In this document: positions 1-25,673 of the stretch, piece by piece
Numbering within the stretch: the first letter of the stretch is position 1
Layout: each line of letters begins with the position of its first letter
DNA from: Maritimibacter sp.
GTDB lineage: Bacteria > Pseudomonadota > Alphaproteobacteria > Rhodobacterales > Rhodobacteraceae
Assembly: GCA_020441225.1 (NCBI GenBank)
Contig: JAGRMP010000012.1
Span: 17,547 to 46,655 of the forward strand
DNA length: 29,109 bases
Direction of reading: 5' to 3'
Position numbers and translations under genes: made by a program
The notes under the pieces: model-generated
The model's input: the letters and a program-made list of their open reading frames with translations, nothing else
The model's database searches: none
Told to the model about the DNA's origin: nothing

Positions 1-2
1 CC

Positions 3-1435: not shown

Positions 1436-1585
1436 GGCATTTCCCTTTCTCGGGAGGCAGGTTGCGTGTCGGAAGCGTCCGGCGCAGAGGACGGGTCGGC
1501 GTGTCGTCAGTCGCGTCGGCGATGCGACCCTAGCGCGCCGGCCGCACGGGGTCAACTTAGGCGGCGGTGCCGCACGGGAGGGACG

Positions 1586-2731: not shown

Positions 2732-2778
2732 CCGGGCACACATGTGATCGGGCAGAGCGCTCGAAGATGGAGGCTAGA

Positions 2779-4026: not shown

Positions 4027-4035
4027 GAGGCCGAC

Positions 4036-4881
4036 GTGGCGGTATTCACCCACCCGATATCCTTCGTGAAAGAAGCGGCACCGTTCCTGCACCTGTGCTG
4101 GAAAATGGGCTGGAATGAAGCCAACGGCGGCAATTTCTCCTGGCGCCTGCCGGCGCAGGAGATCGAAGGCATCCTCGCGCGGCACTACCCCGAACTTGCC
4201 CAGCAGCCCGCCGTGCCGATGCCGATCGACGAGCCGGGGCTCGACGGCGAATACTTCCTCGTGACCGGGGCGGGACAGTTCTTCCGGCACGCGCTGGAGC
4301 ATCCCAACCAGGTCTTCGGCATCGTCCAGATCGTCGAGCGGGGCACCGCCTACCGCGTGGTGTGGGGGTATTCGTCCGGTGCCAAACCGACCTCGGAGTT
4401 CGCCACCCATCTCGTGGCGCACGCGATCCGCAAGCGCGTGTCGAACGGGCGCGAGCGGATCATCCTGCACAGTCATCTGCCCGAGTTCATCGCGCTGAGC
4501 TTCCTTGAGCCGCTCGACAGCCGGGCGCTCACCCGCGCGCTGTGGGAAAAGATGCCCGAATGCATCGTGCTGTTCCCCGATGGCGTGCGGGTTGTGCCGC
4601 TCCTGTTGCCGGGCACCGTCGAGATCGCCGAGGCCTCAGGACGGGAACTGGAGAACAGCCGGGTCATTTCCTGGAGCCACCATGGCATCTTCGTCTCGGA
4701 AGAAAGCCCCAACAAGGTCTTCGGACTTGTGGAAACCATTGAAAAGGCCGCGCTGATCCACCGCAAAGTCTTGTCAGCGGGCGGGCCGAAACGCCGGATC
4801 TCGACCGAGGTCCTGCGGCAACTCGCCGAGACGTTCGGGCATGTCATGGTGGCAGAACCCGATTGGCTGGATGACGCCTGA
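4036..4881 (+). CDS. rhaD: Rhamnulose-1-phosphate aldolase (stand-alone RhaD)
   Basis: A 281-residue class II zinc aldolase of the enterobacterial RhaD type, which splits L-rhamnulose-1-phosphate into dihydroxyacetone phosphate and L-lactaldehyde. Matching landmarks are WNEANGGNFSWRL near the N terminus, FLVTGAGQFFR, the catalytic glutamate Glu121 in PTSEFATH, zinc ligands His145 and His147 in ILHSHLPE, and His216 in WSHHGIF; these correspond to E. coli Glu117, His141, His143 and His212. The start is GTG, five bases after a strong AGGAGG that overlaps the rhaA stop region, so translation is probably coupled. The oddity is that the window already contains a fused aldolase/dehydrogenase for the same reaction. 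Confidence 0.93.
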   Translation: MAVFTHPISFVKEAAPFLHLCWKMGWNEANGGNFSWRLPAQEIEGILARHYPELAQQPAVPMPIDEPGLDGEYFLVTGAGQFFRHALEHPNQVFGIVQIVERGTAYRVVWGYSSGAKPTSEFATHLVAHAIRKRVSNGRERIILHSHLPEFIALSFLEPLDSRALTRALWEKMPECIVLFPDGVRVVPLLLPGTVEIAEASGRELENSRVISWSHHGIFVSEESPNKVFGLVETIEKAALIHRKVLSAGGPKRRISTEVLRQLAETFGHVMVAEPDWLDDA

Positions 4882-12017: not shown

Positions 12018-12860
12018 CTATCCTTTGATTCCTGCGCTCAGGGTGATGGCGTGGGTGATGCGGCGCTGGAACAGGAGGTAGGCCAGCGCCACCGGGAACC
12101 CTGCCAGAACCGCCGCGGCGAGCTCGCTCGCGTAGTACACACCGAAGCTGTCGTTTGTCTGGGTGATGCCCACGGTGATCGTCATCATCTCGGTCTTGGT
12201 CACCGCGAGAAAGGGCCACAGAAAGGCGTTCCACGCCCAGATGAAGGTGACGATCGAAAGCGCTGCGGTAATGCCCCAGTTCATCGGGATGTAGACCTTG
12301 AACAGGATGCCGAACTCGGTCGCATTGTCCATCACCGCCGCCTCTCGGAAATCCTTGGGCACCTGGTCGAAGAATTGCTTGTAGACGATGATCACCACCG
12401 GGTGGATCAGTTGCGGCAGGATTATCCCGGCCCAGGTGTTCAATAGCCCCATATCCGCCATCAGGACGAAGTGATTGATGATCAGCACCTGGGTCGGCAC
12501 CATGAAGCTGGCGAGGATCAGCCACCACAGCGCCTGGCGCAGCGGAAACCTGAGCTGCGAGATCGCGTAGCCGCAGAAGATCGACGAGCCGACGGTCAGC
12601 ACCATGACCCCGAGCGCGGTGGCGATGGAGTTGATGTACCAGGCCCCGATCTGGGTCTGGGTAAGCGCGAAAATGTAATGCTCGAACGTCAGTGTGTCCG
12701 GCCAGAGCTCGATATAGGACCGCACGACCTCGTCGTCGGGCTTCAGCGAACTGATGACGCTCCAGTAGATGGGAAAGGCCCAGAGGATGGCGCAAAACAC
12801 GGTGAACACCGTGATCGCCGCCCCGGCGAGGTTGAAGCGTTTCGCGGTCTCGGGCGTCAT
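12018..12860 (-). CDS. Carbohydrate ABC transporter permease (MalG type)
   Basis: A 280-residue CUT1 inner-membrane permease with about six membrane segments. The cytoplasmic EAA loop that contacts the ATPase is visible as EAAVMDNATEFGILFKVYIP. The C terminus RRITHAITLSAGIKG is typical of MalG-like proteins. ATG 12860 overlaps the stop of the preceding MalF-type gene as ATGA, so the two subunits are translationally coupled. A longer open frame upstream is a shadow of that gene. The partner subunits are encoded on both sides. Confidence 0.92.
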   Translation of the reverse strand: MTPETAKRFNLAGAAITVFTVFCAILWAFPIYWSVISSLKPDDEVVRSYIELWPDTLTFEHYIFALTQTQIGAWYINSIATALGVMVLTVGSSIFCGYAISQLRFPLRQALWWLILASFMVPTQVLIINHFVLMADMGLLNTWAGIILPQLIHPVVIIVYKQFFDQVPKDFREAAVMDNATEFGILFKVYIPMNWGITAALSIVTFIWAWNAFLWPFLAVTKTEMMTITVGITQTNDSFGVYYASELAAAVLAGFPVALAYLLFQRRITHAITLSAGIKG

Positions 12861-13738
12861 TGCCGTTTCTCCGCGAGGCGCATGAGCTGGAAGTTCAGCA
12901 CCGAGACAACGATCACGATCACGAACAGCACGACCGCGATGGCTGCCGCGCGTCCGCCGTGGTTGTTCACGAAGGCGCGCTGGAAGATGTAATAGACCAT
13001 GACGAGGTTGTCGTTCGCGCGTCCGCCGATCGAGAACAGATAGACCTGATCGAAGATCTTGAGCTGCAGGATCAGCTGGATGGTCAGGACCAGCGCCGTC
13101 ACCGGCCAGAGCAGCGGCCAGGTGATCCTGCGGAACGTCGTCCAGCGCGAGGCATTGTCCAGCGCCGAGGCCTCGTAGATCTCCTGCGGGATGGCGCGCA
13201 TCCCGGCGAGGAACAGAAGGATGGAAAACCCGGCCGTCCACCAGATGGTGACGAAGGCCACGGCCGGCATGAACCAGCCGGTCACCTTGAAGATCGGGAC
13301 CCGTTCGGCGCCCAGCCAGTCGAAAACATACATGCCGATCCCGAACTGGAAATTCAGGGTCCAGTCCCAGATCCGGTAGACCACCGAAACGGGCAGGATG
13401 TAGGGCAGGAAGAACAGCGCCAGCACCAGCGTCTGGACCCGGCCCGAAAGCCGGCTGATGCCAAGCGCGATGGCCAGAGCGATCAGGGTGCCCGGCACCA
13501 CCGATAAAGCCACGAAATAGGCCGTGTTCCAGAACGCCGTATCGAAGCGTCGGTCGCTCCCAAGACGGGTGTAATTCTCCAGTCCGACCCAGTCGCCATC
13601 GCCGATCAGCGGTGCGTCCTGGAACGACAGGAGGAACATGTTGGCCGTCGGATAGATGAAGATCAGCCCGTAGATCGCGACGAAGGGCGCAATCAGCACC
13701 AAAGCGGCCAGCGTCTCTCTTTTGGTATTGCGGATCAA
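12857..13738 (-). CDS. Carbohydrate ABC transporter permease (MalF type)
   Basis: A 293-residue CUT1 permease with about six membrane helices, beginning ALVLIAPFVAIYGLIFIYP. The EAA loop is YEASALDNASRWTTFRRITWP. It pairs with the MalG-type subunit encoded directly downstream. The start is TTG at 13738, eight bases after a strong GGGGAGG; no nearby ATG gives a full first helix. Its position, just after the binding-protein gene and a hairpin, matches the common order binding protein, MalF, MalG, ATPase. Confidence 0.9.
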   Translation of the reverse strand: MIRNTKRETLAALVLIAPFVAIYGLIFIYPTANMFLLSFQDAPLIGDGDWVGLENYTRLGSDRRFDTAFWNTAYFVALSVVPGTLIALAIALGISRLSGRVQTLVLALFFLPYILPVSVVYRIWDWTLNFQFGIGMYVFDWLGAERVPIFKVTGWFMPAVAFVTIWWTAGFSILLFLAGMRAIPQEIYEASALDNASRWTTFRRITWPLLWPVTALVLTIQLILQLKIFDQVYLFSIGGRANDNLVMVYYIFQRAFVNNHGGRAAAIAVVLFVIVIVVSVLNFQLMRLAEKRQ

Positions 13739-13767
13739 CGGATACGCCTCCCCGAACCGGATGGTCT

Positions 13768-13796
13768 GGCGGGACGGCAGTCAGGGCCGCCCCGCC
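13768..13796. terminator. Hairpin between binding-protein and MalF-type permease genes
   Basis: An 11-bp stem, GGCGGGACGGC (13768-13778) with GCCGCCCCGCC (13786-13796) and one A-C/G-U type position, encloses a 7-base loop. It sits in the 67-bp gap just after the binding-protein stop. As in the other importer operon, it probably lowers read-through into the permease genes or protects the upstream mRNA; there is no T-tract. Confidence 0.5.
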
Positions 13797-13805
13797 GTGG
13801 CGACA

Positions 13806-15065
13806 TCACATGTCGTTGAGTTCGTAGGTGATTTCCTCGACCGCCTTCGCCGGTTCCATTTCCCCGTTCAGGGTGGGGACGAAGTAGGTCGACATCACGT
13901 CGAAGATCGGCCCGGCCACGCCGGCCAGCGGCGTTTTCGGATCGTAGATCATGTTGGCCGTCAGCGTCGAATAGGTCGCGTTCGGCTCCATCGCCTGGTA
14001 CTCGGCGGTGTCGGTCACGTTCTTGTTGGCGGGGATATGGCCCGCGGTCGCCCAGAACAGCGACTTGTCCAGGATGCCGGCGATGACCTTGAGCACGGCG
14101 TCGCGCTTGGCGGGATCCTGCGCACTTCCGGCCGGGATCGCGAAGACGTGGCTGTCGGAATAGGTGGCCGGGTGATCGAAGATCACGGGCAGTTCGACCG
14201 CGCCCCATTCGAAGAGTTTGCCCTCGGCATGCAGATCGGTCATCGTCGGGACTTCCCAGACACCGTTGATCATCATCGCCGCTTCGCCGCTGGTGAACAA
14301 CGCGACCGTCGCCGGATAGTCGGTGTAGGTCGATTGAAGCCCGGCGTTGGTCCATTCCTGAAGCACGCTCAGGGCGTTTTCCAGCTTTGCGCCGTTGTCG
14401 CCGACAAGGAACTCGCCGTCGGTCAGAAGCTCGCCGTCCTGCTGGCCCATCAGCGAATAGATGGTTCGGAACATGAAGTTGCCGTCGGCCGTCACCGAGG
14501 CCAGCGGGAACTTGACCTGACCGCTGTCGGCGATGGCCTGCAGCATGGCGGTGAACTCTTCCCGGCTGCCCATGCCTGCGGGGGTGCCGGCATCGGTCAG
14601 CTGACCGGCCGCCGCCAACACGTCCTTGTTGTAATAGAGAACGATCGGGTGCGTATCGAGCGGCACGCCGTAGATCTTGCCGTCGGGGCCGGTGACGGCG
14701 TCCCAGATCTGGGCCGCGAAGTCATCCTGGCCCAGGCCCATCTTCTCCCAGTCGGCGGGGGTGATCTCGTCCAGCACGCCCTGATCGATGGCGAGCGGGA
14801 TGCGCGAGGCGTGATAGGTCATCACGTCGGGCGCTTCGCCCACGGCGACCGAGGTCTGCACCTTGGCGTAGAAGGGCACACCCCATTCCAGCGTGGTGGC
14901 GTCGATCTTCACTTCGCCGGCGTTGGCTTCGTTGAATTCCGAGATCAGCTGCTTCATGCGCACACCGTCTCCGCCGCCGAGGAAATCCCACCAGATGACG
15001 GTTTCCTCGGCCTGTGCCGCCGTCGCCATCATGGTCGCGGCTGCCAATCCTATGTACTTGTTCAT
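13806..15065 (-). CDS. Extracellular solute-binding protein of a CUT1 sugar importer
   Basis: A 419-residue family 1 solute-binding protein. The N terminus MNKYIGLAAATMMATAAQAEE is a signal peptide with likely cleavage after AQA. Typical elements follow: VIWWDFLGGGDGVRMKQLI, YGVPLDTHPIVLYYNKDVL, a FTSGEAAMMINGVWEVP core segment, and a C-terminal helix region. The ATG at 15065 has GGGAGGA upstream. The GH51 gene 109 bp upstream on the same strand suggests its ligand is an arabinoside or arabino-oligosaccharide. A copy of the motif found before the GH51 gene lies at 15142-15160, so both genes are probably controlled together. Confidence 0.92.
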   Translation of the reverse strand: MNKYIGLAAATMMATAAQAEETVIWWDFLGGGDGVRMKQLISEFNEANAGEVKIDATTLEWGVPFYAKVQTSVAVGEAPDVMTYHASRIPLAIDQGVLDEITPADWEKMGLGQDDFAAQIWDAVTGPDGKIYGVPLDTHPIVLYYNKDVLAAAGQLTDAGTPAGMGSREEFTAMLQAIADSGQVKFPLASVTADGNFMFRTIYSLMGQQDGELLTDGEFLVGDNGAKLENALSVLQEWTNAGLQSTYTDYPATVALFTSGEAAMMINGVWEVPTMTDLHAEGKLFEWGAVELPVIFDHPATYSDSHVFAIPAGSAQDPAKRDAVLKVIAGILDKSLFWATAGHIPANKNVTDTAEYQAMEPNATYSTLTANMIYDPKTPLAGVAGPIFDVMSTYFVPTLNGEMEPAKAVEEITYELNDM

Positions 15066-15141
15066 TTACGTCCTCCCTGTTTTCCGATCGTGATGCCGGT
15101 TCTTGAAAAATGTTACAGCAAACCCGGATTCGTTCAACGGA

Positions 15142-15160
15142 ATTATCGGTATGTACCCGA
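15142..15160. promoter_or_regulatory. Candidate operator before the binding-protein gene
   Basis: ATTATCGGTATGTACCCGA here differs only by small changes from ATTATCCGGTGTGTACCGA before the GH51 gene (16709-16727). Each has the dyad core GGT-RTGT-ACC. A second TATCCGGTATGG copy follows at 15162-15173. The likely ligand is the ArsR-like regulator encoded at 16778-17695. Confidence 0.5.
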
Positions 15161-15174
15161 CTATCCGGTATGGT

Positions 15175-16683
15175 TCAGAGCTGGACCCGGATGACGGAAT
15201 AGCTGTGGGCGGGCAGGGTGAGCGCCAGTCCGCCGCCGCCGATCTTCGCCCCGTTGCCGGTCCGGGGAACCACGTTGTCCGGGTTGGCCTCGGTGTTGCG
15301 CGCCTCCAGATCGTTGTGGCGGATCAGGATATGCTCGACCGCTTTCGGGGTCCCGAAATGCTCCAGCGCCAGATCCACCTCCAGGGGCTCGTCGCCGTTC
15401 TTGTTGACGGCAAAGAAGGTCAGGGTGCCGGCATCGCCGTCGTGCACGCCGGCAAGGTCCAGGTATTTCACCCCCGACGCGATGTCGGCATCATAGGTCG
15501 GGCAATCGACATCCAGCTGAAGCGCGGTACCCCGGCCCATCGTCGAGGCGAACTTGAACGGATAGTAGATCGTCTGCCGCCAGGCCGCGCCGCCGGGCGC
15601 GGTCATGATCGGCGCAATCACGTTCACAAGTTGTGCGATGCAGGCAATGCGCACCACGTCCGATCTGCGGATGAACGTGTTGAGGATACAGCCGACCAGC
15701 AGCACGTCCTCGAAATTGTAGACGTCCTCGAGCAGCGCGGGCGCATGGGGCCAGTCCCATTCGTCCATCCGCTTGGCGTCGTTCCGGCGCTCGTGGTACC
15801 AGACGTTCCATTCATCGAAGCTGATCTTCACATCCCGTTTCGAGCGGGATTTCGACTTCACATAATCGATGACCCCGGACACCGTGCTGATGTAGCGATC
15901 CAGTTTCTCGGGGAGCGCCAGGTATTCGGCCGTGTTTTTCTCGTAATTCTCGAAATACATGTGCAGTGAGATGAAATCGACCTGGTCGTAGGTCTCCTCC
16001 AGCACCGTCGCTTCCCATTGCGGATATGTCGGCATGTCGGAATGCGACGAGCCGCACACGATCAGTTCCAGGGACTTGTCGAACGCGCGCAACGCCTTGG
16101 CGGTTTCGTTCGCCAGATGCCCGTATTCCGCCGCCGACTTGTGGCCGATCTGCCAGGGGCCGTCCATCTCGTTGCCGAGACACCAGACCTTGACGCCCCA
16201 GGGGTCGGCCCGGCCGTTTTTCCTGCGCAGGTCCGACCAGTAGCTGCCGCCGGGGTGATTGACGTATTCGACGAAGGCCCGGGCGGCGTCCAGATCGCGC
16301 GAGCCGAGGTTCAGTGCGAGCATCATCTCGGTGTTCGCCTTGTCGGCCCAATCGGCATATTCGTGAATGCCGACCTGGTTCGATTCCGATGTCCGCCAGG
16401 CCAGGTCCAGCCGGGTCGGCCGATCCTCCTTGGGGCCGATCCCGTCTTCCCAGTTATAGGCCGAGACGAAGTTGCCGCCGGGATAGCGACAGATCGGCGT
16501 GTCCAGCTCGCGGACCAGATCGATCACATCGCGGCGCATCCCGCTTTCGTCCGCTGTCGGGTGTCCCGGTTCGTAGATGCCGGTATAGACCGCGCGCCCG
16601 AGATGCTCGAGGAACGACCCGTATAGACGATTGTCGATGTCCGAAATCACATAGCGACTGTGCGCCGTGGCCCTGACCTTCAT
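15175..16683 (-). CDS. Alpha-L-arabinofuranosidase, GH51
   Basis: A 502-residue glycoside hydrolase family 51 enzyme that releases terminal L-arabinofuranose. The N-terminal GSFLEHLGRAVYTGIYEPG and PICRYPGGNFVSAYNWEDG segments are family hallmarks. The acid/base glutamate is Glu172 in CLGNEMDGPWQIG and the nucleophile is Glu291 in SFDEWNVWYHERR. The C terminus is the usual beta-domain. There is no signal peptide, so it acts in the cytoplasm on imported oligosaccharides. The ATG at 16683 follows GGGAGGG. It sits between its likely regulator and the importer genes on the same strand. Length is normal for the family. Confidence 0.95.
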   Translation of the reverse strand: MKVRATAHSRYVISDIDNRLYGSFLEHLGRAVYTGIYEPGHPTADESGMRRDVIDLVRELDTPICRYPGGNFVSAYNWEDGIGPKEDRPTRLDLAWRTSESNQVGIHEYADWADKANTEMMLALNLGSRDLDAARAFVEYVNHPGGSYWSDLRRKNGRADPWGVKVWCLGNEMDGPWQIGHKSAAEYGHLANETAKALRAFDKSLELIVCGSSHSDMPTYPQWEATVLEETYDQVDFISLHMYFENYEKNTAEYLALPEKLDRYISTVSGVIDYVKSKSRSKRDVKISFDEWNVWYHERRNDAKRMDEWDWPHAPALLEDVYNFEDVLLVGCILNTFIRRSDVVRIACIAQLVNVIAPIMTAPGGAAWRQTIYYPFKFASTMGRGTALQLDVDCPTYDADIASGVKYLDLAGVHDGDAGTLTFFAVNKNGDEPLEVDLALEHFGTPKAVEHILIRHNDLEARNTEANPDNVVPRTGNGAKIGGGGLALTLPAHSYSVIRVQL

Positions 16684-16777: not shown

Positions 16778-17695
16778 TCAGCGCAGACGCATCACGATGT
16801 CCTGGTCGTAATTGCCGAAGCCGCGGCCGAAGATGTTGATCCCGCCGGGATGATTGGCCTCGTCGCGGACACCGATCCGCATCCGGATCGACCGATGACT
16901 GTCGATGGCCAGGTCCGCGAGGGTGACATCCGACACTTTCACGCCATCCACGAAACTGCCGCTTCCGTTGACCCGCCAGGTCTTCAGCATTCCGTATTGC
17001 GATCCTTTCAGCTTCCACCATTCCGGCGTGTAGACGCCTCTTCTGTCGCCATAGTCGCCGGGCGAGGTCCAGGTCGCGACCTCGATCCCGTTGATGTCGA
17101 GCGAGATGTCGGACGGCCAGTCCGCGCTTGTGCCGGGAACCTCCGAACTCAACTCCATCGAGAACTCGATCTCGGTCAGCTGCGCGTTCTTCAGCTTTGC
17201 GTTGTTGGGGAATTGGTACTCGACATAGCCTCTGCTGAACCAGAGCAGGCCCGCCTTCATCCGATCCGGGTCGAGAAAGGTATCGGGTACATCGAGCAAC
17301 CCGATCACGCTGTCCAGGGCGCAGAGCCCGCAGGGCGCCGAGACTTCGCATTGGGTGTAGAGGCCGATCGGCATCGACACTTCGATTTCCTTGTCGTGAT
17401 CCGACCGGGTGTCCCGGAAGGCGACGAGAATCTCCGAGAACGCGGATTCGCAGACTTTCTGACTGCCTTTGCGGGCCTTCTGGGTCCGCGTCACCACAAG
17501 CCCGACGTCCTCCAGAACCTGCAAATTCGACGACACGGTCGATTGCGGAAGGTCCAGGGTCTCGGTGATCTGGTTCACGTTCATCGGGCCCGACAGGCCC
17601 AGCAATTTCAGAATCGAGACCCTGAGGGGACTGGCAAGACCCCGGATCACATCCTGGTTTCTTTCCGGATCGATGACGAGGTACTTTTCGGGCAA
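16778..17695 (-). CDS. ArsR-like regulator with C-terminal beta-rich domain
   Basis: About 305 residues. An N-terminal ArsR-type winged helix is visible (VIRGLASPLRVSILKLLGL, MNVNQITETLDLPQSTVSSN, LQVLEDVGLVVTRTQKARKG). A long C-terminal part follows, with APCGLCALDSVIG, a DPDRMKAGLLWFSRGYVEYQ stretch, WPSDISLDINGIEVATWTS and INIFGRGFGNYDQDIVMRL; it looks beta-rich and probably senses sugar. From memory, similar two-part proteins occur beside arabinofuranosidase genes in Firmicutes. No ATG fits the domain start; TTG 17695, preceded by AGGTCGACAA, is the best start. The frame stays open to ATG 17872, but that part is not protein-like. It lies 94 bp upstream of the GH51 gene and probably represses it. 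Confidence 0.78.
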   Translation of the reverse strand: MPEKYLVIDPERNQDVIRGLASPLRVSILKLLGLSGPMNVNQITETLDLPQSTVSSNLQVLEDVGLVVTRTQKARKGSQKVCESAFSEILVAFRDTRSDHDKEIEVSMPIGLYTQCEVSAPCGLCALDSVIGLLDVPDTFLDPDRMKAGLLWFSRGYVEYQFPNNAKLKNAQLTEIEFSMELSSEVPGTSADWPSDISLDINGIEVATWTSPGDYGDRRGVYTPEWWKLKGSQYGMLKTWRVNGSGSFVDGVKVSDVTLADLAIDSHRSIRMRIGVRDEANHPGGINIFGRGFGNYDQDIVMRLR

Positions 17696-18082
17696 TTGTC
17701 GACCTGCTGGCAAGGGTTTCGAGCACCGTATCAGGAAGTCGGGTATAAAAGGAAGCCTATTGTTGCGGTCGCCTCTGTGCGCGTCCCGGCCCGCAACCGC
17801 ATCGCCGAGGACCCGGCGCTCGCGGATGGATGCCGTCGTTGTCCGGCACCGGGGACAGCGGTCCCGGTCCACTGGAGACGTCTTGGAAACGGTCTGCCGG
17901 CTCCCCAGGTTGATCCACGCTGCCGAAACAGTCTGTCCGAGTTCTCGAGCTTATCAACAGAGGCAAGTTGACTATGCTTGGCGACACTGGTTCGTGTTCG
18001 CACACTTCGGGATGCCCGATGGCTGGGATGTCACTCGGGGCAAACGTGTTTTCGTTGCGGCGATCGCGTATCCGGTGCGAAG
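17696..18082. other. Spacer between divergent regulator and asnB-like genes
   Basis: About 390 bases without a supported gene. Open frames here on both strands (for example the extension of the regulator to 17872) have compositions unlike the neighbouring proteins. Divergent promoters must lie here. Weak candidates are TTGACT at 17968-17973 for asnB and an AT-rich GGGTATAAAAGG stretch near 17740-17752 for the regulator. A TATCCGGT match to the arabinoside operator sequence occurs near 18069. Confidence 0.4.
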
Positions 18083-18111
18083 ATGGCAAATCCGGGGGGA
18101 AACTTTGCCAT
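18083..18111 (+). promoter_or_regulatory. Inverted repeat enclosing the asnB ribosome binding site and start codon
   Basis: ATGGCAAA (18083-18090) and TTTGCCAT (18104-18111) are perfect 8-base complements. The 13-base loop holds the purine-rich GGGGGGA ribosome binding site, and the right arm contains the first two bases of the start codon. In RNA this would hold the start codon in a stem; as DNA it could be an operator. Confidence 0.5.
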
Positions 18112-20089
18112 GTGTGGAATTGCTGGTTGCCTGACGTCACTTGGCGAAAGCGAAAAGCGGTCCAGGGTGACCGCGATGACCGCGGCGCTCGACCACCGCG
18201 GTCCTGATGGCCACGGTATTCACGTCGATGCCGGCGTCGCATTGGGCCACACGCGCCTCAGCATCATCGATCTCGCCGGTGGGCACCAGCCGATGAGCAA
18301 CGATGACGAGAGCGTCACGATCACCTTCAACGGCGAGATCTTCAACTTCGTCGAATTGCGCGACGACCTCGAAGCACGCGGGCAGCGCTTTCGCACGAGG
18401 TCCGACACCGAAGTCATCCTGCGTCTCTATGAGGTCTACGGCGAGGATTGCGTCGATCACCTCAACGGCGATTTCGCCTTCGGCATCTGGGACCGGCGCA
18501 AGCAGAAACTCGTGCTCGCGCGCGACCGCATGGGGGTGCGGCCGGTGTTTTACACCGAGCAGCGCGACGGGTTCTATTTCGCGTCCGAAGTGAAGGCGCT
18601 GCTGGAGGTCCCCGGGATCACGGCAGAGCTCGATCCGGTGGCCCTCGACCAGATTTTCACCCTCTGGTTCCCGCTCGCGCCGAGAACGCCGTTCAAGGGC
18701 ATTTCCGAACTGCCTCCGGGCCACATTCTGGTGGCCGACCGGCAAGGGATCCGGTCGCGGGCCTACTGGCGGCTCAACTATCCCGATCTCGACGACAGGA
18801 CGGCGCTCGATCCGCGGTCTTCGGCCGAGATCGCCGAAGCGCTGGCCGAGTTGCTCACCGACGCCACGCGTATCCGGCTGCGGTCTGACGTGCCGGTGGG
18901 CGCCTATCTGAGCGGCGGGCTCGACAGTTCGATCATCACCGCGGCGGTCAACCGGATCGCGCCGACGCGGCTGCGCACCTTCTCCGTCGCCTTCGAGGAC
19001 GACGAGTTCGACGAAAGCGCCTTCCAGCAGCAGATGGTCCGCGCGCTGCAGACCGACCACGAGGGGACATCCGTGACCAGGGCCAGGATCGGGGAGATCT
19101 TCCCCGATGTCGTGCGCCACACCGAACGGCCGATCCTGCGCACCGGACCGGCGCCGCTCTATGCGCTCTCGAAGCTGGTGCGCGACCGGGAGTACAAGGT
19201 GGTGCTGACCGGCGAAGGCGCAGACGAGGTTTTTGCCGGCTACGACATCTTCAAGGAGGCCAAGCTGCGCCGCTTCTGCGCCCGCCAGCCCGGGTCGCAG
19301 ATGCGCCCACTGTTGTTCAAGCGCCTCTACCCGTATCTGCCGGGCCTGCAGAACCAGTCGCAGGCCTACCTGGAAGCGTTCTTCAAGGTCGGTCTCGGCA
19401 CCGACGACCCGCTCTATTCGCATCTGCCGCGGTTCCGCACCGCCGGTGGCGCCAAGGTGTTTTTCTCGAACGAGCTCAAGGCGGAGCTGAAGGATTACGA
19501 CGCGCTGGAGGAACTGCGCGACAGCCTGCCGGACGCGTTCCGCCGCTGGCATCCGCTGTCGCAAGCGCAGTATCTCGAAGCTGCCCATCTTCTGCCGGGC
19601 TACATTCTGTCGTCGCAAGGGGACCGGATGTCGATGGCCAACTCGGTGGAGGGGCGTTTCCCGTTCCTCGATCACCGGCTGGTGGAGTTCGCCGCCACGA
19701 TCCCGCCCGAGCAGAAGATCCTCGGCCTGCGCGAAAAGCACATCCTGCGTCGGGCGATGGGCGATCTGCTGCCGCCGGAGATCGGCAACCGGCCGAAGCA
19801 GCCCTATCGCGCGCCCGACAGCCCGTCCTTCACCGGTCCGGTGGCGCCCGCCTATGTCGACGAAGTTCTGTCGCCGCAGGCGCTGGAGGAAACCGGCTGG
19901 TTCAATCCGCGGGCCGTCGCCCGGTTGCACGCCAAATGCAGCGCCGGAAACCCGGTCGGATTCCGCGATAACATGGCCTTTGTCGGGATCCTCTCGACGC
20001 AGCTGTGGCACCGCGCGTTCACCGGCGCCGGGCACCAAGCCCGACCCCATTCCCGGCCCCAGGCCGAAACCCTCGACCACACGTCCTAA
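18110..20089 (+). CDS. Glutamine-dependent asparagine-synthetase-type amidotransferase (AsnB family)
   Basis: A 659-residue two-domain enzyme. After Met1 removal Cys2 (MCGIAG) is the class II glutaminase nucleophile; DHRGPDG, LGHTRLSIIDL, FNGEIFNF and SDTEVIL complete that domain. The synthetase domain has the ATP-binding SGGLDSS at residues 268-274, followed by VVLTGEGADEVFAGYDIF and the late SMANSVEGRFPFLDHRLVEF segment. AsnB makes asparagine from aspartate, but paralogues in glycan and natural-product loci amidate other carboxylates. Here it heads a compact operon with an ACP, a ligase, a methyltransferase and a NadE-like protein, so a tailoring or secondary role is more likely than housekeeping. 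The start is fixed by the catalytic Cys2; a longer in-frame upstream reading is therefore rejected. Confidence 0.93.
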   Translation: MCGIAGCLTSLGESEKRSRVTAMTAALDHRGPDGHGIHVDAGVALGHTRLSIIDLAGGHQPMSNDDESVTITFNGEIFNFVELRDDLEARGQRFRTRSDTEVILRLYEVYGEDCVDHLNGDFAFGIWDRRKQKLVLARDRMGVRPVFYTEQRDGFYFASEVKALLEVPGITAELDPVALDQIFTLWFPLAPRTPFKGISELPPGHILVADRQGIRSRAYWRLNYPDLDDRTALDPRSSAEIAEALAELLTDATRIRLRSDVPVGAYLSGGLDSSIITAAVNRIAPTRLRTFSVAFEDDEFDESAFQQQMVRALQTDHEGTSVTRARIGEIFPDVVRHTERPILRTGPAPLYALSKLVRDREYKVVLTGEGADEVFAGYDIFKEAKLRRFCARQPGSQMRPLLFKRLYPYLPGLQNQSQAYLEAFFKVGLGTDDPLYSHLPRFRTAGGAKVFFSNELKAELKDYDALEELRDSLPDAFRRWHPLSQAQYLEAAHLLPGYILSSQGDRMSMANSVEGRFPFLDHRLVEFAATIPPEQKILGLREKHILRRAMGDLLPPEIGNRPKQPYRAPDSPSFTGPVAPAYVDEVLSPQALEETGWFNPRAVARLHAKCSAGNPVGFRDNMAFVGILSTQLWHRAFTGAGHQARPHSRPQAETLDHTS

Positions 20090-20104
20090 CGGAAGGAATT
20101 CGCT

Positions 20105-20425
20105 ATGCAGGACATTGATGCCCAGGATCTCAAGGCCTTCATCGAAAAGGATGTGCGTGCCTTCATCGCCGAGAACCTGACCTTTTCCGACGACCCCGAT
20201 GAGCTCGATGCCGAGGTGTCGATGCTCGAGGCCGACATCATCGATTCCACGTCGATCCTCGAACTGGTCTCGTATCTCGAAGAACGGTTCGGCATCGACA
20301 TCGACGACGACGACATGGTGCCGGCCAATCTCGACAGCCTCAACCGGATCGCCGCCTTCGTCGCCGCGCGCCTCGAGGCCCAGCCCGGGTCGATCGACCT
20401 CGCGAAACTGCGCCAGGCCTCCTGA
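20105..20425 (+). CDS. Acyl carrier protein
   Basis: A 106-residue acidic carrier protein. Ser48, in ADIIDSTSILELV, is the expected 4'-phosphopantetheine attachment site. The following ELVSYLEERFGIDIDDDDMV matches helix II and the loop of ACPs. It is longer than the fatty-acid ACP (~78 residues), with a ~25-residue N-terminal extension and a short tail, as is common for pathway-specific carriers. A GGAAGGA ribosome binding site lies seven bases before the ATG, and the asnB-like gene ends 15 bp upstream. The ligase gene starts 24 bp downstream and probably loads it. Confidence 0.9.
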   Translation: MQDIDAQDLKAFIEKDVRAFIAENLTFSDDPDELDAEVSMLEADIIDSTSILELVSYLEERFGIDIDDDDMVPANLDSLNRIAAFVAARLEAQPGSIDLAKLRQAS

Positions 20426-20449
20426 CATCTTTGAAAGAGCGTGATCGAC

Positions 20450-22054
20450 ATGCGGGTTGAAGACTTCCTGAAGGACACGGCGCGGCGGCTGCCGGACAAA
20501 TGCGCGCTGGTCGCGGACGGTGTCCGGACGTCCTATGCCGAGCTCGACGCGATGTCGGACCGTCTGGCGGCCTATTTCGTGCAGGAGGGGATCAAGCCGG
20601 GCGACCGGATCGTGATCTTCATGGGCAACCGACTCGAGGCGGTCGTCGCCATCTTCGCGGCGCAGAAGGCGGGCGCGGTGTTCTCGCCGGTCAACCCATC
20701 GACCAAGGCCGGCAAGCTTGGCTTCATCCTCAACAATTGCGATGCCGTCGCGGTGGTGACCGAAGGCCGTCTCGGCCCGGTCGCGGCCGAGGCCATCGCC
20801 CTCCTGGCGCCGTCGGTGCGCCTGGCGATCCGCGTCGGCGGCAAGGAGGCCCGCATTGCGCCCAAGACCGTGCGTTTCGAGCAGGCGCTCGACGAAGGCA
20901 GCGGCGCGGTGGGCGACCCAGGCATCGAAATCGACCTCTCGATGCTCATATACACATCGGGATCCACCGGCATGCCCAAGGGCGTGATGATGACCCATCT
21001 CAACGTCGTCACCGCCGCCCGGTCGATCATCACCTACCTCGGGATGACCGAGGAGGACATCGTGCTCAGCGTGTTGCCGATCTCCTTCGACTACGGCCTT
21101 TATCAGATCCTCATGGCTGTGCGGACCGGCGCGACGCTGGTGCTCGAAAAGAGTTTTGCCTTTCCGGTCGCGATTCTCGAAAGGCTCGCGGAGGAGCGTG
21201 CCACCGGCTTTCCGTTGGTTCCGACCATGGCGGCGATGCTTCTGAAGCTGGAGGGGCTCAAACCCGGGGCCTTCCCGCATCTGCGGTTCATCACCAACAC
21301 CGCGGCCGCGCTGCCCGTCGCGCATATTCTGGCGCTGCAACGGCTGTTTCCCGAGACCGAAATCTTCTCGATGTACGGCATGACCGAATGCAAGCGCTGC
21401 ACCTATCTGCCGCCGGAACACCTGCGCACCCGTCCCGGATCCGTAGGCATTGCCATCCCCGGCACCCAGGCCTTCGTCGTCGATGAGAACGGCGCCCCTC
21501 TGCCGCCGGGTCAGGAAGGCGAGCTGGTGATCCGCGGCGCCCATGTCATGAAAGGGTACTGGAAGAACCCCGAAGCGACACAGAAGGTGCTCAAGCCGGG
21601 ACCGCTGCCGGGCGAGAACCTGTTGCACACCGGGGACCTGTTTCGCAGCGACGACGAGGGGTTCCTGTATTTCGTCGGCCGCAAGGACGACATCATCAAG
21701 TCGCGCGGCGAAAAGGTCGCTCCAAAGGAGGTCGAGACCGTCCTGCACGAGTTGCCCGGGGTCAGCGAGGCGGTGGTCATCGGTCTTCCCGACCCGGTCC
21801 TGGGCCATGCCGTCAATGCCGTCATCGTCCTTGCGGGCGGCGCGACGGTCGACAAGCGCGACCTGCTGCGCCACTGCCGGCAGCGGCTTGAAGATTTCGC
21901 AGTGCCGGTCGGTTTCGAATTTCGCGACGAGCTGCCGAAAACCGCCAATGGCAAGGTCGATCGGCGTCTGCTCGGCGAGATGCTGATGCAGGAGGCCCAA
22001 CGGCATGACCCAGACCCGGACAGCCCTGCATCCCGACCGGAGAGGACCCAATGA
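20450..22054 (+). CDS. Adenylate-forming ligase (acyl/aminoacyl-AMP ligase)
   Basis: A 534-residue ANL-superfamily enzyme. Core motifs are YTSGSTGMPKG at residues 168-178, MYGMTECKRCTYLPPE, GELVIRGAHVMKGYWKNPE, HTGDLFRSDDEGFLYFVGRKDDIIKSRGEKV and the C-terminal catalytic lysine Lys502 in PKTANGKVDRR. It would activate a carboxylic acid as acyl-AMP and transfer it to the ACP encoded directly upstream or to CoA. It recalls the exosortase-A-associated AMP ligases, from memory. The ATG at 20450 is favoured because AAAGAG lies 10 bases upstream; GTG 20441 is an in-frame alternative. The substrate pocket does not reveal a familiar amino-acid code. Confidence 0.87.
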   Translation: MRVEDFLKDTARRLPDKCALVADGVRTSYAELDAMSDRLAAYFVQEGIKPGDRIVIFMGNRLEAVVAIFAAQKAGAVFSPVNPSTKAGKLGFILNNCDAVAVVTEGRLGPVAAEAIALLAPSVRLAIRVGGKEARIAPKTVRFEQALDEGSGAVGDPGIEIDLSMLIYTSGSTGMPKGVMMTHLNVVTAARSIITYLGMTEEDIVLSVLPISFDYGLYQILMAVRTGATLVLEKSFAFPVAILERLAEERATGFPLVPTMAAMLLKLEGLKPGAFPHLRFITNTAAALPVAHILALQRLFPETEIFSMYGMTECKRCTYLPPEHLRTRPGSVGIAIPGTQAFVVDENGAPLPPGQEGELVIRGAHVMKGYWKNPEATQKVLKPGPLPGENLLHTGDLFRSDDEGFLYFVGRKDDIIKSRGEKVAPKEVETVLHELPGVSEAVVIGLPDPVLGHAVNAVIVLAGGATVDKRDLLRHCRQRLEDFAVPVGFEFRDELPKTANGKVDRRLLGEMLMQEAQRHDPDPDSPASRPERTQ

Positions 22055-22977
22055 CGATCACCGAGACATCGACCGCCCTGTGGGATGAACAGCTCGACCG
22101 GTTGCGGGCCGGGCTGAAGGTCCTGGAGGACAAGCCCGAAGAGACCGAGGAAACCTGCCTGCAGGCCCTGTGGCTCAAGGCGGCGGGTATCGCGGTCTCG
22201 CCGCAGCGGGCGGGCGCGCTGGACCGGCCGCCGCTCACCGACGACCAGGCACGGGAACTGGCCCGATTGGTGGCGCAACGTCTTCAAGGCACGCCGTTGT
22301 CCTATCTGACCGGCCGCCAGAGTTTCATGGAGCTCGAGTTCCTGACCACGCCCGGGGCGATGATCCCGCGCAAGGAAACCGAGATCCTGGCGAGAACCGC
22401 GTTGGGTCTCATCGACGGGATGGACGGGCGGGGCGAGGGGTTCTGTCTCCTCGACATCTGCACCGGCTCGGGGAACCTGCCCGTGGTCTATGCGACGCAT
22501 GATCCGACCGCGCGGGTGTTTGCGGCCGATCTGTCCGACGAGGCCGTGGCGCTCGCCCGCGAAAACGCCGTGTTGCATGGCGTCGAGGCGCGGATCGAAC
22601 TGCGCCAGGGCGATCTCCTCGCGCCGTTCGACAGCGATGATTTTCACGGCAAGGTCGACCTCCTGAGCTGCAACCCGCCCTATATCTCCAACGCAAAAGT
22701 CGACGAATTGCCCGAGGAGATTGCCACCCACGAGCCGCGGATGGCCTTTGCCGGCGGCTCGTTCGGGATCGACATTCCAAAGCGGCTGATCGCGGATGCG
22801 GTGCGGTTTCTGAAACCGAATACCGGCTGGCTCGCATTCGAGATCGGCCTCGGCCAGGGACCGTTTTTCCAAAAGCGGCTGCAGAAGAATCCGCATTTCG
22901 CGGATGTCGTCGGGGTGACCGACGACAACGGAGACATTCGTGTCGTTGCGGCCCGCCGGGTCGAGCCGCAAATTTGA
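22051..22977 (+). CDS. PrmC/HemK-like N-methyltransferase
   Basis: A 308-residue SAM-dependent methyltransferase. The C-terminal Rossmann domain has LLDICTGSGNLPV near residues 133-145 and the NPPY motif at residues 208-211 (SCNPPYIS), the signature of enzymes that methylate planar nitrogen groups such as glutamine amides or adenine. A helical N-terminal domain of ~100 residues precedes it, with LSYLTGRQSFMELEF as in PrmC. PrmC normally methylates release factors and lies next to prfA; here the gene overlaps the ligase gene as ATGA and no prfA is present. It may therefore methylate an amide nitrogen in the pathway product, which is inference. Substitution of DLGTGTG by DICTGSG is a small departure. 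Confidence 0.85.
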   Translation: MTITETSTALWDEQLDRLRAGLKVLEDKPEETEETCLQALWLKAAGIAVSPQRAGALDRPPLTDDQARELARLVAQRLQGTPLSYLTGRQSFMELEFLTTPGAMIPRKETEILARTALGLIDGMDGRGEGFCLLDICTGSGNLPVVYATHDPTARVFAADLSDEAVALARENAVLHGVEARIELRQGDLLAPFDSDDFHGKVDLLSCNPPYISNAKVDELPEEIATHEPRMAFAGGSFGIDIPKRLIADAVRFLKPNTGWLAFEIGLGQGPFFQKRLQKNPHFADVVGVTDDNGDIRVVAARRVEPQI

Positions 22978-22991
22978 AACGGGAGATCATG

Positions 22992-24002
22992 ATGGACGAA
23001 GCCATTTCCGCGGGAAACGAAACCTTCAGCAGCGAGGTCCTGCAGCTCGACTATGAGCAGGCCGCAGACGCCATCGTCGCCGCCATTCGCCAGCAGGTGA
23101 CCAAACGGCTGCGCAAACGCGGGGTCGTTCTCGGGCTTTCGGGTGGGATCGACAGTTCGGTAACGGCGGCATTGTGCGTCCGGGCGCTCGGGCCCAAACG
23201 GGTGTTTGCCGTGTTCATGCCGGAAAAGGAAAGCGAGAGCGAAAGCCTCTCGCTGGGCCGCGCGGTGGCAGATCATCTCGGCATCGAAAGCGTGGTTGAG
23301 GATATCGGACCGGCGCTCGACGCCGCAGGCTGCTACCGGCGCCGCGACGCGTTCATCCGCGAGGTGGTCCCGGACTTCGGCGCCGACTGGGGCTGCAAGG
23401 TGGTGCTGCCCAACGTTCTGGAAAACGAGGGCTACAACCTGTCGCGGCTGGTGGTCGAGGCGCCCGACGGGACCCGGGCCGAGCATTCGATGCCGCTCAA
23501 CGTGTATCTCGGCATCGTCGCCGCGACCAACATGAAACAGCGGACCCGCAAGCAGATCGAGTATTACCACGCGGACCGGCTGAACTACGCGGTCGCGGGC
23601 ACGCCGAACCGGCTCGAATACGACCAGGGGTTCTTCGTCAAGAACGGCGACGGCGCCGCAGACTTCAAACCGATCGCGCATCTCTACAAGACGCAGGTCT
23701 ACGACATGGCGGCGGTCCTCGACATTCCGGAAGACATCCGGTCGCGGCCGCCGACGACCGACACCTGGTCGCTGGCCCAGTCGCAGGAGGAGTTCTATTT
23801 CTCGCTGCCCTACCACCAGATGGATCTGTGCCTCTACGGGCTCAACGAGGGCATCGCCGCCGCCGAGGTCGCCCGGGCGGTGAACCTCACGCCGGATCAG
23901 GTCGAGCGGGTGTGGCGCGACATTGCCGCCAAGCGCAAGGCCACGCGTTACCTGCACGAGCCCCCGCTGCTGGTCGAGAACGTGGCGATCTTGTCGGATT
24001 GA
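22992..24002 (+). CDS. NadE-like ATP-dependent amide synthetase
   Basis: A 336-residue protein of the NAD synthetase fold. The PP-loop SGGIDSS is at residues 50-56, followed by VFAVFMPEKESESESL, then GTPNRLEYDQGFFVKNGDG and LYKTQVYDMAAVLDIPE. There is no N-terminal nitrilase-type glutaminase domain, so it would use free ammonia or ammonia from another protein. The loop after IRSRPPTTDTW (SLAQSQEEFYF) departs from the PSADLWEGQTDE-like stretch of true NadE. It may make NAD+, but its place after AsnB, ACP, ligase and methyltransferase genes suggests amidation of another carboxylate. ATG 22992 has GGGAG six bases upstream; ATG 22989 and TTG 22974 are alternatives. Confidence 0.85.
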   Translation: MDEAISAGNETFSSEVLQLDYEQAADAIVAAIRQQVTKRLRKRGVVLGLSGGIDSSVTAALCVRALGPKRVFAVFMPEKESESESLSLGRAVADHLGIESVVEDIGPALDAAGCYRRRDAFIREVVPDFGADWGCKVVLPNVLENEGYNLSRLVVEAPDGTRAEHSMPLNVYLGIVAATNMKQRTRKQIEYYHADRLNYAVAGTPNRLEYDQGFFVKNGDGAADFKPIAHLYKTQVYDMAAVLDIPEDIRSRPPTTDTWSLAQSQEEFYFSLPYHQMDLCLYGLNEGIAAAEVARAVNLTPDQVERVWRDIAAKRKATRYLHEPPLLVENVAILSD

Positions 24003-24033
24003 AGCCTGCGCATCGGGGGGAGGCAACTTGCCG

Positions 24034-25023
24034 ATGGAAAACACGCCAGGGCCGAAAACGGTCGCCATCGTCATCCTGAATTACAAGACGCCGGATCTGG
24101 TGGTCGATTGCCTTCAGTCCCTGGAAGAGCAGATCGAGCCGGGCGTCGATGTCATCGTCGTCGACAATGCGTCGAATGACGGCTCGGCGGAGAAGATCGA
24201 GGCCCGGATCGACGCGGCGCACTGGGGATCCTGGGCGCGCGTGCTGCGCTCGCCGGTGAACGGAGGCTTTGCCGCGGGCAACAACCTGGGCATCCGCGCC
24301 ATCGATGCCGATGCCTACCTTCTGCTGAACAGCGACACGATCGTTCGGCCCGGCGCGATTGCGGAACTGCGACGCGCCATGGGCCTGCGGCCGGACGCCG
24401 GCCTCATCGGACCCGGGTTCGTTGCCAGGGACGGCAGCCGGGATCTGAGCACGTTCCGTACGATCCGGCCCCTGTCCGAATTCGTGCGCTCTGCCTCGAC
24501 CGGACCGATTTCGCGCCTGCTCGCGAAGCATGACATCCATTTCCGGACTGCGGACACCGTGGCCGAACCGGATTGGATCGGCTTCGCCGGTGTCCTGATC
24601 CGCCGCGAAGTCATCGCGCGGGTCGGCCTGCTGGACGAGGGCTTTTTCATGTATTTCGAGGACACGGACTATTGCCTGCGGGTGCGGGAGGCAGGGTGGA
24701 CGATCCTGTACTGGCCCAAGGCGACCGTCGTTCATCTGTTGGGCGGGAGCTCGGAATTTTCGTCCGAAAGCGGTTTGCGGGACCGCGCACCGCGGTATTT
24801 CTACGAGTCCCGGTCCCGTTTTTTCGCGAAGCATTACGGTCGCTCGGGACTGCTCTTGGCCAATCTGGCGTGGCTCCTGGGGCGAAGCATCTCGCTGCCG
24901 CGAGAGCTTTTCGGTAACAAATCCACACAGCAACGAAAGCGGGAAGGCCGGGACAACTGGATCAATTTCTTCGATCCCCTGCGGAACACGGCGCTTCCCG
25001 CAAAAGGAAAGGCGGGACAATGA
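24034..25023 (+). CDS. Family 2 glycosyltransferase (rhamnosyltransferase-like)
   Basis: A 329-residue inverting GT-A glycosyltransferase. Visible are the nucleotide-sugar-binding start VAIVILNYKTPDLVVDCLQS, VVDNASNDGS, the metal-binding LLNSDTIV, and the acceptor-site EGFFMYFEDTDYCLRVREAG with its ED pair. The layout resembles rhamnosyltransferases of the WbbL/RfbF type. ATG 24034 gives a normal N terminus; a strong GGGGGGAGG lies 10 bases before it and 4 bases before an alternative TTG at 24028. It has no membrane helices apart from a possible weak amphipathic segment near residue 280. It probably adds a sugar to a lipid carrier or to the product of the upstream genes. The stop overlaps the next gene as ATGA. 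Confidence 0.9.
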   Translation: MENTPGPKTVAIVILNYKTPDLVVDCLQSLEEQIEPGVDVIVVDNASNDGSAEKIEARIDAAHWGSWARVLRSPVNGGFAAGNNLGIRAIDADAYLLLNSDTIVRPGAIAELRRAMGLRPDAGLIGPGFVARDGSRDLSTFRTIRPLSEFVRSASTGPISRLLAKHDIHFRTADTVAEPDWIGFAGVLIRREVIARVGLLDEGFFMYFEDTDYCLRVREAGWTILYWPKATVVHLLGGSSEFSSESGLRDRAPRYFYESRSRFFAKHYGRSGLLLANLAWLLGRSISLPRELFGNKSTQQRKREGRDNWINFFDPLRNTALPAKGKAGQ

Positions 25024-25673
25024 ACGAATTGTCGGATCGGTCCACAGAGCTTCCCGAGGCACACGACGCGCCGGATGTGTCGGCGCCGGGCGGTGCCCAG
25101 CCGGCGGCGGACGTAAATCCCAACCCCGGAGACCGCAATCAGAACCCTGCCGGGATCAGCTTCTTTCAACTCATCGCCGAGGATTTTCGGACCCACGAAA
25201 GCAACCTGTTCGTGCCGGGCTTCTGGGCGGTGGCCATCCATCGCTTCGGCAACCTGCGCATGGACATCCGCCCGCGCCTGCTGCGCCTGCCGTTCAGCCT
25301 GCTCTACAACATCCTGCACGCCTTCATGAGCGGCTTCTTCGGGATCAACTTGAACTACTCGGTCAAGTTGGGAAGACGGGTGTGCCTGTGGCACCATGGC
25401 GGCATGTTCCTTGGGGCGATCTCGATCGGCGACGACGTCACGATCCGCCAGAACACGACCATGGGCGTCCTTCACAAGGACGACAAATGGAAGAAGCCGA
25501 TTATCGAAGACCGGGTCGATATCGGATCCGGCGCCTGCATCCTCGGCGACGTCACCGTGGGGCACGACAGTGTCATCGGCGCAAACTCGGTTGTCGCGCG
25601 CAGCTTCCCGCCGCACTCGACGGTCTTCGGAGTTCCCGCGCGGCGTGTGAACGTCAAGCTCGGCGACGCGTGA
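25020..25673 (+). CDS. Serine-acetyltransferase-like hexapeptide acyltransferase
   Basis: A 217-residue left-handed beta-helix transferase. The first ~45 residues are Pro/Ala/Asp-rich and probably disordered. A helical stretch follows (FFQLIAEDFRTHES, PFSLLYNILHAFMSGFFG). Then come hexapeptide repeats from KLGRRVCLWHHGGMFLGAIS to GANSVVARSFPPHSTVFGVP, including the catalytic histidine pair in LWHHGG. The pattern is that of CysE-like enzymes, but relatives in polysaccharide loci O-acetylate sugars. The hydrophobic PFSLLYNILHAFMSGFFG region could associate with the membrane. It overlaps the glycosyltransferase gene as ATGA, so a role in acetylating the same glycan is more likely than cysteine synthesis. 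Confidence 0.85.
   Translation: MNELSDRSTELPEAHDAPDVSAPGGAQPAADVNPNPGDRNQNPAGISFFQLIAEDFRTHESNLFVPGFWAVAIHRFGNLRMDIRPRLLRLPFSLLYNILHAFMSGFFGINLNYSVKLGRRVCLWHHGGMFLGAISIGDDVTIRQNTTMGVLHKDDKWKKPIIEDRVDIGSGACILGDVTVGHDSVIGANSVVARSFPPHSTVFGVPARRVNVKLGDA

Follow-up and report, generated by a model that had tools for sequence, protein, structure and literature searches.

A seven-gene operon in Maritimibacter sp. carries a conserved carrier-protein module that may supply an unusual acyl group for exopolysaccharide

Exosortase-A (XrtA) exopolysaccharide gene sets carry an amidotransferase (TIGR03108) and a ligase (TIGR03098), and also include an acyl carrier protein (ACP). In vicenistatin biosynthesis, VinL and VinO belong, with VinN, to the activation of a beta-amino acid. 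VinN activates 3-methylaspartate; its residue D230 binds the amino group, and K330 and R331 lie in a shortened loop (excerpt of PMC11253843). On Sinorhizobium meliloti pSymB, an operon with the order asnB, SMb20651 (ACP), SMb20650 (ligase), and nadE1 is described by Ramos-Vega et al. (2009). This core operon is thus already known, and the portions of the literature covered by our search describe it without a product.

The window, the whole 29,109-nucleotide stretch of Maritimibacter sp. DNA analyzed here, contains these four families, arranged as in S. meliloti. Its AsnB, ACP, ligase, and NadE proteins share 62.8, 52.7, 59.0, and 69.7% identity, respectively, with those of S. meliloti RCAM1115 (local alignments). 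Unlike S. meliloti, the window has a methyltransferase gene between ligase and NadE (AsnB-ACP-ligase-methyltransferase-NadE), plus genes for a family 2 glycosyltransferase (GT2) and a hexapeptide transferase. ORF reading confirmed the coordinates of the seven genes, all open on the + strand. Intergenic spacings, 5' to 3' through the operon, are 15, 15, -4, -4, 31, and -4 bases. These agree with the first-pass annotation, which had reported seven same-strand genes separated by at most 38 bp, with ATGA overlaps at 22051 and 25020; in addition, the methyltransferase and NadE genes overlap by TTGA at 22974. Family assignments likewise support its reading that an acid is activated together with an ACP and that the operon encodes two enzymes of amide type and an NPPY methyltransferase. 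The seven-gene arrangement is not a product of chance, because the core order is kept in other genomes. The operon's flanks in the window are sugar catabolism genes. Within the window, we found no Rfam match, notable repeat, or consensus promoter, and terminator-like sites were no commoner than in shuffled sequences.

AsnB, ACP, the AMP-forming ligase, and the NadE-like protein form a conserved module. In tblastn searches, 79 of 80 loci have ACP, ligase, and NadE side by side, and in 46 AsnB lies directly upstream of them, in the order AsnB-ACP-ligase-NadE with no methyltransferase in between. All 15 tested genomes without AsnB in the locus carry it elsewhere. C1, an unnamed family linked to the module, occurs in 76 of the 80 loci (missing from four) and the methyltransferase in 19 (missing from many); heuristic ORF picking, which missed genes, had given 74 and 18. 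Some of the matches in relatives contain stops or switch frame: AsnB of genome G001 lies in two frames, and stops that may lie beyond the true end fall inside 1 of 15 AsnB and 3 of 7 methyltransferase matches. Among 200 genomes from the phylum of one relative (G004), NadE matched in six, one of which was the center of the sample and itself found with NadE; ligase, ACP, and AsnB stood beside NadE in all six. Another genome (G318), where NadE is cut at a contig end and the surrounding 10 kb gave no ligase or AsnB match, was not counted for the module. Two amide-forming enzymes in one operon had been called unusual by the first-pass annotation; the combination of the four genes is no peculiarity of this genome but a conserved operon described in S. 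meliloti.

The module is linked to Wzx/Wzy exopolysaccharide genes rather than to an exosortase; no exosortase was recognized among the window ORFs scanned. At least one Wzx, Wzy, Wzz, GT4, deacetylase, GT2b, or glycoside-hydrolase gene lies near 20 of the 46 AsnB-bearing loci. Together with GT2 relatives in Wzx-type clusters, this upholds the glycan setting proposed earlier. The proposed likeness to exosortase-A loci stands for the protein families, but window AsnB and ligase score under the curated XrtA cut-offs, NadE and the methyltransferase are extra, and the link is to Wzx/Wzy. With moderate confidence, we regard the operon as the form that a conserved carrier-protein module takes in one lineage, the module providing an unusual, probably aminoacyl, acyl group for exopolysaccharide. 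It is quite unlikely that the product is instead a free small molecule (a compatible solute or siderophore-like compound) and not a polymer substituent. Such a product would fit the score of AsnB against the N-acetylglutaminylglutamine (NAGGN) amidotransferase family TIGR03104 (393.6 bits), the lack of any recognized Wzx/Wzy gene among the window ORFs scanned, the roughly 10 kb separating the S. meliloti operon from polysaccharide genes, and the 34 loci without AsnB, none of which shows any of the counted polysaccharide genes. However, the TIGR03104 cut-off (570.1) is missed, and polysaccharide genes adjoin not only those 20 AsnB-bearing loci but also the module in locus L118.

The ligase (20441..22054, + strand, GTG start; PF00501, AMP-binding, 2.2e-93) scores 456.4 bits against TIGR03098, under the cut-off of 592.35. 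Its best solved relative is 3wvn (310.7 bits), and the pocket loop aligned without gaps. Pocket residues D217, Y218, T287, K318, and R319 align with VinN D230, F231, S299, K330, and R331, on an inferred VinN numbering offset of 16. Asp, Lys, and Arg are identical, whereas Tyr replaces Phe at 231 and Thr replaces Ser at 299. The VinN-type combination of an amino-binding Asp with Lys/Arg in a shortened loop is therefore found in the window (D217, K318, and R319), and the key pocket residues are kept. By homology, the ligase would activate an aspartate-like amino acid as the adenylate, at the carboxyl beta to the amino group, and load it onto the ACP. In contrast to the VinN system, no decarboxylase was recognized in the window, which has AsnB, NadE, and a methyltransferase instead, and the setting is polysaccharide rather than macrolactam. 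At locus L138, a sister ligase with the pocket DYTHR shares its strand with a TIGR03099-like decarboxylase, as would be the case for a VinN-VinO-type route.

The DYTKR pocket occurs in 44 of 79 module ligases, while 33 have a GYA[LIM]R pocket. Because these 33 lack the amino-binding Asp, aspartate is not a general need of the module. Among the 80 loci, the AsnB nearest to that of the window (68%) belongs to L060, which has the pocket SYAKR. A strict association of AsnB with the aspartate pocket (44/44 versus 0/33) was considered and rejected: the 15 tested GYA[LIM]R genomes carry AsnB elsewhere, and loci L136 and L137 combine a GYAIR pocket with a contiguous AsnB.

The acylated ACP to which the S. 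meliloti ligase led in E. coli reportedly carried fatty acyl groups, which counts against the preferred reading. The ligase might load the ACP with a fatty acid destined for a glycolipid, lipopeptide, or modified membrane lipid, which we consider unlikely. The best NCBIfam match of the ACP (20105..20425, + strand; PF00550, PP-binding, 2.5e-6, 28.1 bits against a cut-off of 20.8; putative phosphopantetheine Ser within DST) is the ornithine-lipid ACP family NF052616, although its 56.6 bits fall under the cut-off of 130, and N-myristoyltransferases are among the PDB relatives of C1. The window ligase and 44 of 79 loci nevertheless have a pocket of the amino-acid type, and a lipid route leaves the amide-forming and methyltransferase genes without an obvious role. 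The S. meliloti ligase led to acylated ACP in E. coli, as a lipid route would have it, but reverted none of the fadD phenotypes (PMC7232532), an assay of CoA rather than ACP.

AsnB (18110..20089, + strand) has PF00733 (Asn_synthase, 1.1e-94) and PF13537 (6.3e-49) domains, exceeds the TIGR01536 cut-off (527 bits versus 267.1), and carries an N-terminal Cys (MCGIAG, a start inside a longer ORF) and an SGGLDS PP-loop. It reaches 472 bits against TIGR03108 (cut-off, 816.9); judged by sequence, it appears related to the NAGGN amidotransferase without reaching that family's cut-off. The NadE-like protein (22974..24002, + strand; NAD_synthase, 1e-51) starts at TTG, or alternatively at an ATG at about 22989, has no glutaminase domain, and relative to 2e18 has an insertion of ~53 residues between residues 117 and 184. 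In the six relatives' genomes tested, the module NadE is an extra paralogue, each having a second NadE with an open frame of 560-604 aa. The curated subfamily model NF002048 (527.4 bits versus a cut-off of 313) labels the module protein as NAD(+) synthase, though those genomes carry another NadE.

Amide bonds would be made by AsnB with glutamine and by the NadE-like protein with ammonia; the simplest AsnB target would be the free carboxylate of an ACP-bound aspartyl group. WbtH-type O-antigen enzymes convert a uronic acid to a uronamide. A somewhat unlikely alternative is that AsnB and/or NadE act on a sugar in this way, the methyltransferase N-methylating the uronamide, while ligase and ACP independently provide that repeat unit with an N-acyl group. 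AsnB and NadE accompany ligases of either pocket type, as they would if their substrate did not depend on that of the ligase. In the split genomes, moreover, AsnB adjoins polysaccharide genes (9 of 15 have Wzx, Wzz, or GT2b at most 1.5 kb away) and not the ligase, as in G001. The near-universal contiguity of ACP, ligase, and NadE would, however, be odd if NadE acted on a sugar, and the methyltransferase goes with the aspartate-type pocket: it accompanies 25 of the 32 DYTKR ligases examined (19 have it in the locus and, of the remaining 13, 6 have it at another place in the genome) but 0 of 15 GYA[LIM]R and 0 of 2 S/N-pocket genomes, a pattern confounded by shared ancestry.

On the ACP-bound route that we prefer, the PrmC/HemK-like methyltransferase (22051..22977, + strand; MTS, 6.3e-10; PrmC_N, 4.5e-6) would, in some lineages, N-methylate the amide. 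It shares the NPPY motif and PrmC_N domain with N5-glutamine methyltransferases, exceeds the HemK-family cut-off (TIGR00536, 163.5 bits versus 115.5), and falls under that of release-factor PrmC (TIGR03534, 189.9 versus 199.1). Its identity to three housekeeping PrmC proteins is only 22-24%, versus 34-40% to module methyltransferases. A weak PADLOC mad2 match (60 bits) was taken as methyltransferase superfamily similarity. The PrmC-like methyltransferase is also linked to the core module. As sole query on 200 genomes, it matched in three, each time within 9 kb of all four core genes. A class-wide search at 1e-44 (0 of 385 genomes) was uninformative: the sample includes G002, which has a methyltransferase relative, so this threshold is too strict, and the 200-genome count (matches of 1e-41 to 1e-45 at a limit of 1e-40) is therefore a lower bound. 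Locus L113 (genome G101) has the core and C1, with no methyltransferase match in its 20 kb. Among the matches listed, NadE and methyltransferase share longest contigs of 12212 and 7034, which suggests common contigs in relatives; the longest contigs of the listed hexapeptide protein matches coincide with those of no listed NadE or methyltransferase match.

GT2 (24034..25023, + strand; PF00535, Glycos_transf_2, 1.3e-15), of exopolysaccharide type, would add a sugar. Its relatives occur inside Wzx-type polysaccharide clusters, including one with 52% identity from Synechocystis, in a pSYSM cluster that also encodes a flippase and glycosyltransferases. The CysE/EpsC-like hexapeptide-repeat acyltransferase (25020..25673, + strand; PF00132, Hexapep, 7.2e-10) scores 101.2 bits against serine acetyltransferase EpsC (NF041874; cut-off, 150). 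Both are lineage additions that do not travel with the core: within ~10 kb of the module, the 80 loci gave one hexapeptide protein relative (L060) and one weak GT2 match (L002, 28%). The neighborhood search proposed earlier for all seven families thus found the core four and the methyltransferase linked, but not these two.

In the last step, an acyltransferase would transfer the group from the ACP to an exopolysaccharide sugar. In most relatives this may be C1, for which a confident model (pLDDT, 90.5) predicts a tandem-GNAT fold, and in others a thioesterase-domain protein; here it is probably the hexapeptide protein, the candidate terminal acyltransferase. The best tblastn match of C1 in the window (E, 1.4e-5) was rejected, as it falls in the methyltransferase gene and stems from an over-extended L005 ORF overlapping the methyltransferase; the next, in another region, reaches only E 0.003. 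As a tentative proposal, possible rather than probable, this would be a dedicated carrier-protein pathway in which an aspartate-derived carboxamide, N-methylated in some lineages by the PrmC-type enzyme, is grafted onto an amino sugar of the exopolysaccharide. A NadE-fold enzyme would then serve as an amide ligase with no part in NAD metabolism, and acyltransferases of three unrelated types (tandem-GNAT, thioesterase, and hexapeptide) would be interchangeable at the last step.

The position of the module by Wzx/Wzy genes in many loci, the aspartate-type pocket, and the linked methyltransferase and tandem-GNAT families offer a testable substrate and indicate where to seek the product. The same core operon is carried by S. 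meliloti, a model plant symbiont, where the methyltransferase and C1 genes lie >10 kb from the operon, adjoining Wzx.

The window operon is a partly known module (AsnB, ACP, AMP-forming ligase, and a NadE-like protein), extended here by a PrmC-like methyltransferase (MT), a GT2 glycosyltransferase, and a hexapeptide acyltransferase. The first-pass annotation had described seven closely spaced same-strand genes at 18110-25673; this arrangement is borne out (plus strand, spacings of 15, 15, −4, −4, 31, and −4 bases), and Pfam and NCBIfam back the family of every gene. The steps by which the module pathway would lead from substrate to product are putative.

The four-gene core operon is already known from S. 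meliloti, where Ramos-Vega et al. (2009) reportedly described it as asnB-ACP-ligase-nadE1. The operon of the annotated strain RCAM1115 agrees with this order. Approximately 10 kb away, with minCDE in between, lies a polysaccharide region carrying C1 (a tandem-GNAT protein), MT, Wzx, C22 (a relative of C1), GumC-like, O-antigen-ligase-like, deacetylase, and glycosyltransferase genes. Gene counting and locus tags suggest that this may be the SMb21506 region, for which a paper title claims an effect on succinoglycan. According to another paper (PMC7232532), the ligase gene SMb20650 is cotranscribed with the ACP gene SMb20651; expressing the two together in E. coli yielded acylated ACP, whereas none of the fadD phenotypes was reverted by SMb20650.

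The module is real and conserved. Scanning the window NadE against genome contigs gave 114 relatives, and the best 80 were retained. Among these best 80 of 114 loci, ACP, ligase, and NadE are contiguous in 79 (the exception is a 3-kb contig), with AsnB immediately upstream in 46. Identities to the window proteins are 58-68% for AsnB (46 loci), 35-57% for ACP (79 loci), 45-64% for the ligase (79 loci), and 64-73% for NadE (80 loci). All 33 loci among these 80 whose ligase has the pocket code GYA[LIM]R (window positions 217, 218, 287, 318, and 319) lack AsnB in the locus. In 15 of 15 such genomes tested, AsnB is encoded elsewhere (58-62% identity), and in nine it lies within 1.5 kb of Wzx, Wzz, or GT2b. 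In G001, the genome of locus L001, the genes next to AsnB are those for Wzx, C22, Wzz, Wzy, GT4, and a deacetylase. Thus, the core proteins co-occur per genome despite operon splitting.

Core conservation is further backed by 200 genomes from the phylum of genome G004, drawn independently of the core genes, which give the same co-occurrence. The NadE query matched six of these genomes (including the sample's centre), all with AsnB, ACP, and ligase beside NadE; the ligase query matched eight, including all six. With the window MT as sole query, three of the 200 matched, and in all three the four core genes lie at most 9 kb away, although the gene order takes two forms. Of 385 genomes sampled at class level, three matched NadE, including the centre; genome G101 has the complete core plus C1, and in G318 the NadE locus is interrupted by a contig end.

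The exopolysaccharide setting is recurrent, yet not universal. In 20 of 46 AsnB-bearing loci, one or more of seven neighbour families (Wzx, Wzy, Wzz, deacetylase, GT4, GT2b, and glycoside hydrolase, named partly via homology to RCAM1115) are represented within ~10 kb, and none of the seven is in loci without AsnB (0/34). Neighbours of the module at relative locus L118 include a DegT-type aminotransferase, a sugar transferase of the initiating type, a polysaccharide export protein, and a LegB-like dehydratase (score below cut-off), which is consistent with an amino sugar as acceptor. Adenylation-thioesterase proteins (911-930 aa) are an NRPS-like addition beside the module there (L118:15462-18251) and at L119 (2181-4916). 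The conserved C1 family, found in 76 of the best 80 of 114 loci (e.g., L063:11056-12168), has no Pfam or NCBIfam name; C22 (e.g., L041:14493-15734) is related to it.

The best solved relative of the window ligase is 3wvn (310.7 bits), with the pocket loop aligned gaplessly. A review (PMC11253843) identifies 3WVN as VinN, in which D230 binds the beta-amino group, K330 and R331 lie in a shortened loop, and F231 and S299 lie opposite that loop. The window ligase has D217, Y218, T287, K318, and R319 at the positions of D230, F231, S299, K330, and R331. From such residues the ligase substrate can be guessed, and they make amino-acid loading by the window ligase likely. However, the code is DYTKR in 44 of 79 ligases, GYA[LIM]R in 33, and SYAKR or NYAMR in a single ligase each, so such loading would not be general to the module. 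Further DYTKR ligases occur at L113, L118, L119, and L120, and further GYAIR ligases at L136 and L137.

Sister ligases (42-43% identity) have the pocket DYTHR, and neither AsnB nor NadE has a match in the 20-kb stretches around them. The one at L138 is accompanied by a TIGR03099-like decarboxylase (373.2 bits, below the cut-off of 478.45). L138 would fit a logic of the VinN-VinO type, the free carboxylate being removed instead of amidated. Near the sister ligases of both L138 and L139 are a DltA-like ligase and proteins weakly resembling KAS III; L139 has a nearby P450 instead of the decarboxylase.

The window MT is 34-40% identical to module methyltransferases, compared with 22-24% to three housekeeping PrmC proteins; among named relatives, it is closest to a protein of a Maritimibacter MAG (76%). 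MT accompanies 25 of 32 DYTKR ligases tested (of 44), 19 in the locus and six of the 13 others elsewhere in the genome. It was found in none of 15 GYA[LIM]R genomes tested, in neither genome with an SYAKR or NYAMR pocket, and not in the 20-kb stretches of L136 and L137. Since related clades are not independent, this association with the DYTKR pocket is suggestive only.

The NadE-like protein (22974-24002) looks like a dedicated paralogue, because another NadE (open frame of 560-604 aa) is present in all six relatives' genomes tested; for the same reason, the NF002048 name "NAD(+) synthase" may be misleading for this subfamily. The protein retains the SGGIDS loop and GDGA-D stretch of NAD synthetases, the segment separating the two being ~53 residues longer than in 2e18, and a Pfam search found no glutaminase domain.

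The operon flanks look unrelated to it. To the left are rhamnose catabolism genes (1-4881; SDR, FMN-dependent dehydrogenase, L-rhamnose isomerase at E 1.4e-187, and class II aldolase), and, on the minus strand, an ABC-transporter permease and alpha-L-arabinofuranosidase (12860-16683) and an ArsR-like regulator divergent from the operon (16778-17872; NF033788, 50.9 bits, below the cut-off of 55), the N-terminal stretch of whose ORF is probably not translated. To the right is a ribokinase-like gene on the strand opposite to the operon. In plasmid records, the nearest relatives of the window rhamnose isomerase are from Paracoccaceae, Jannaschia, and Ruegeria (74-78%).
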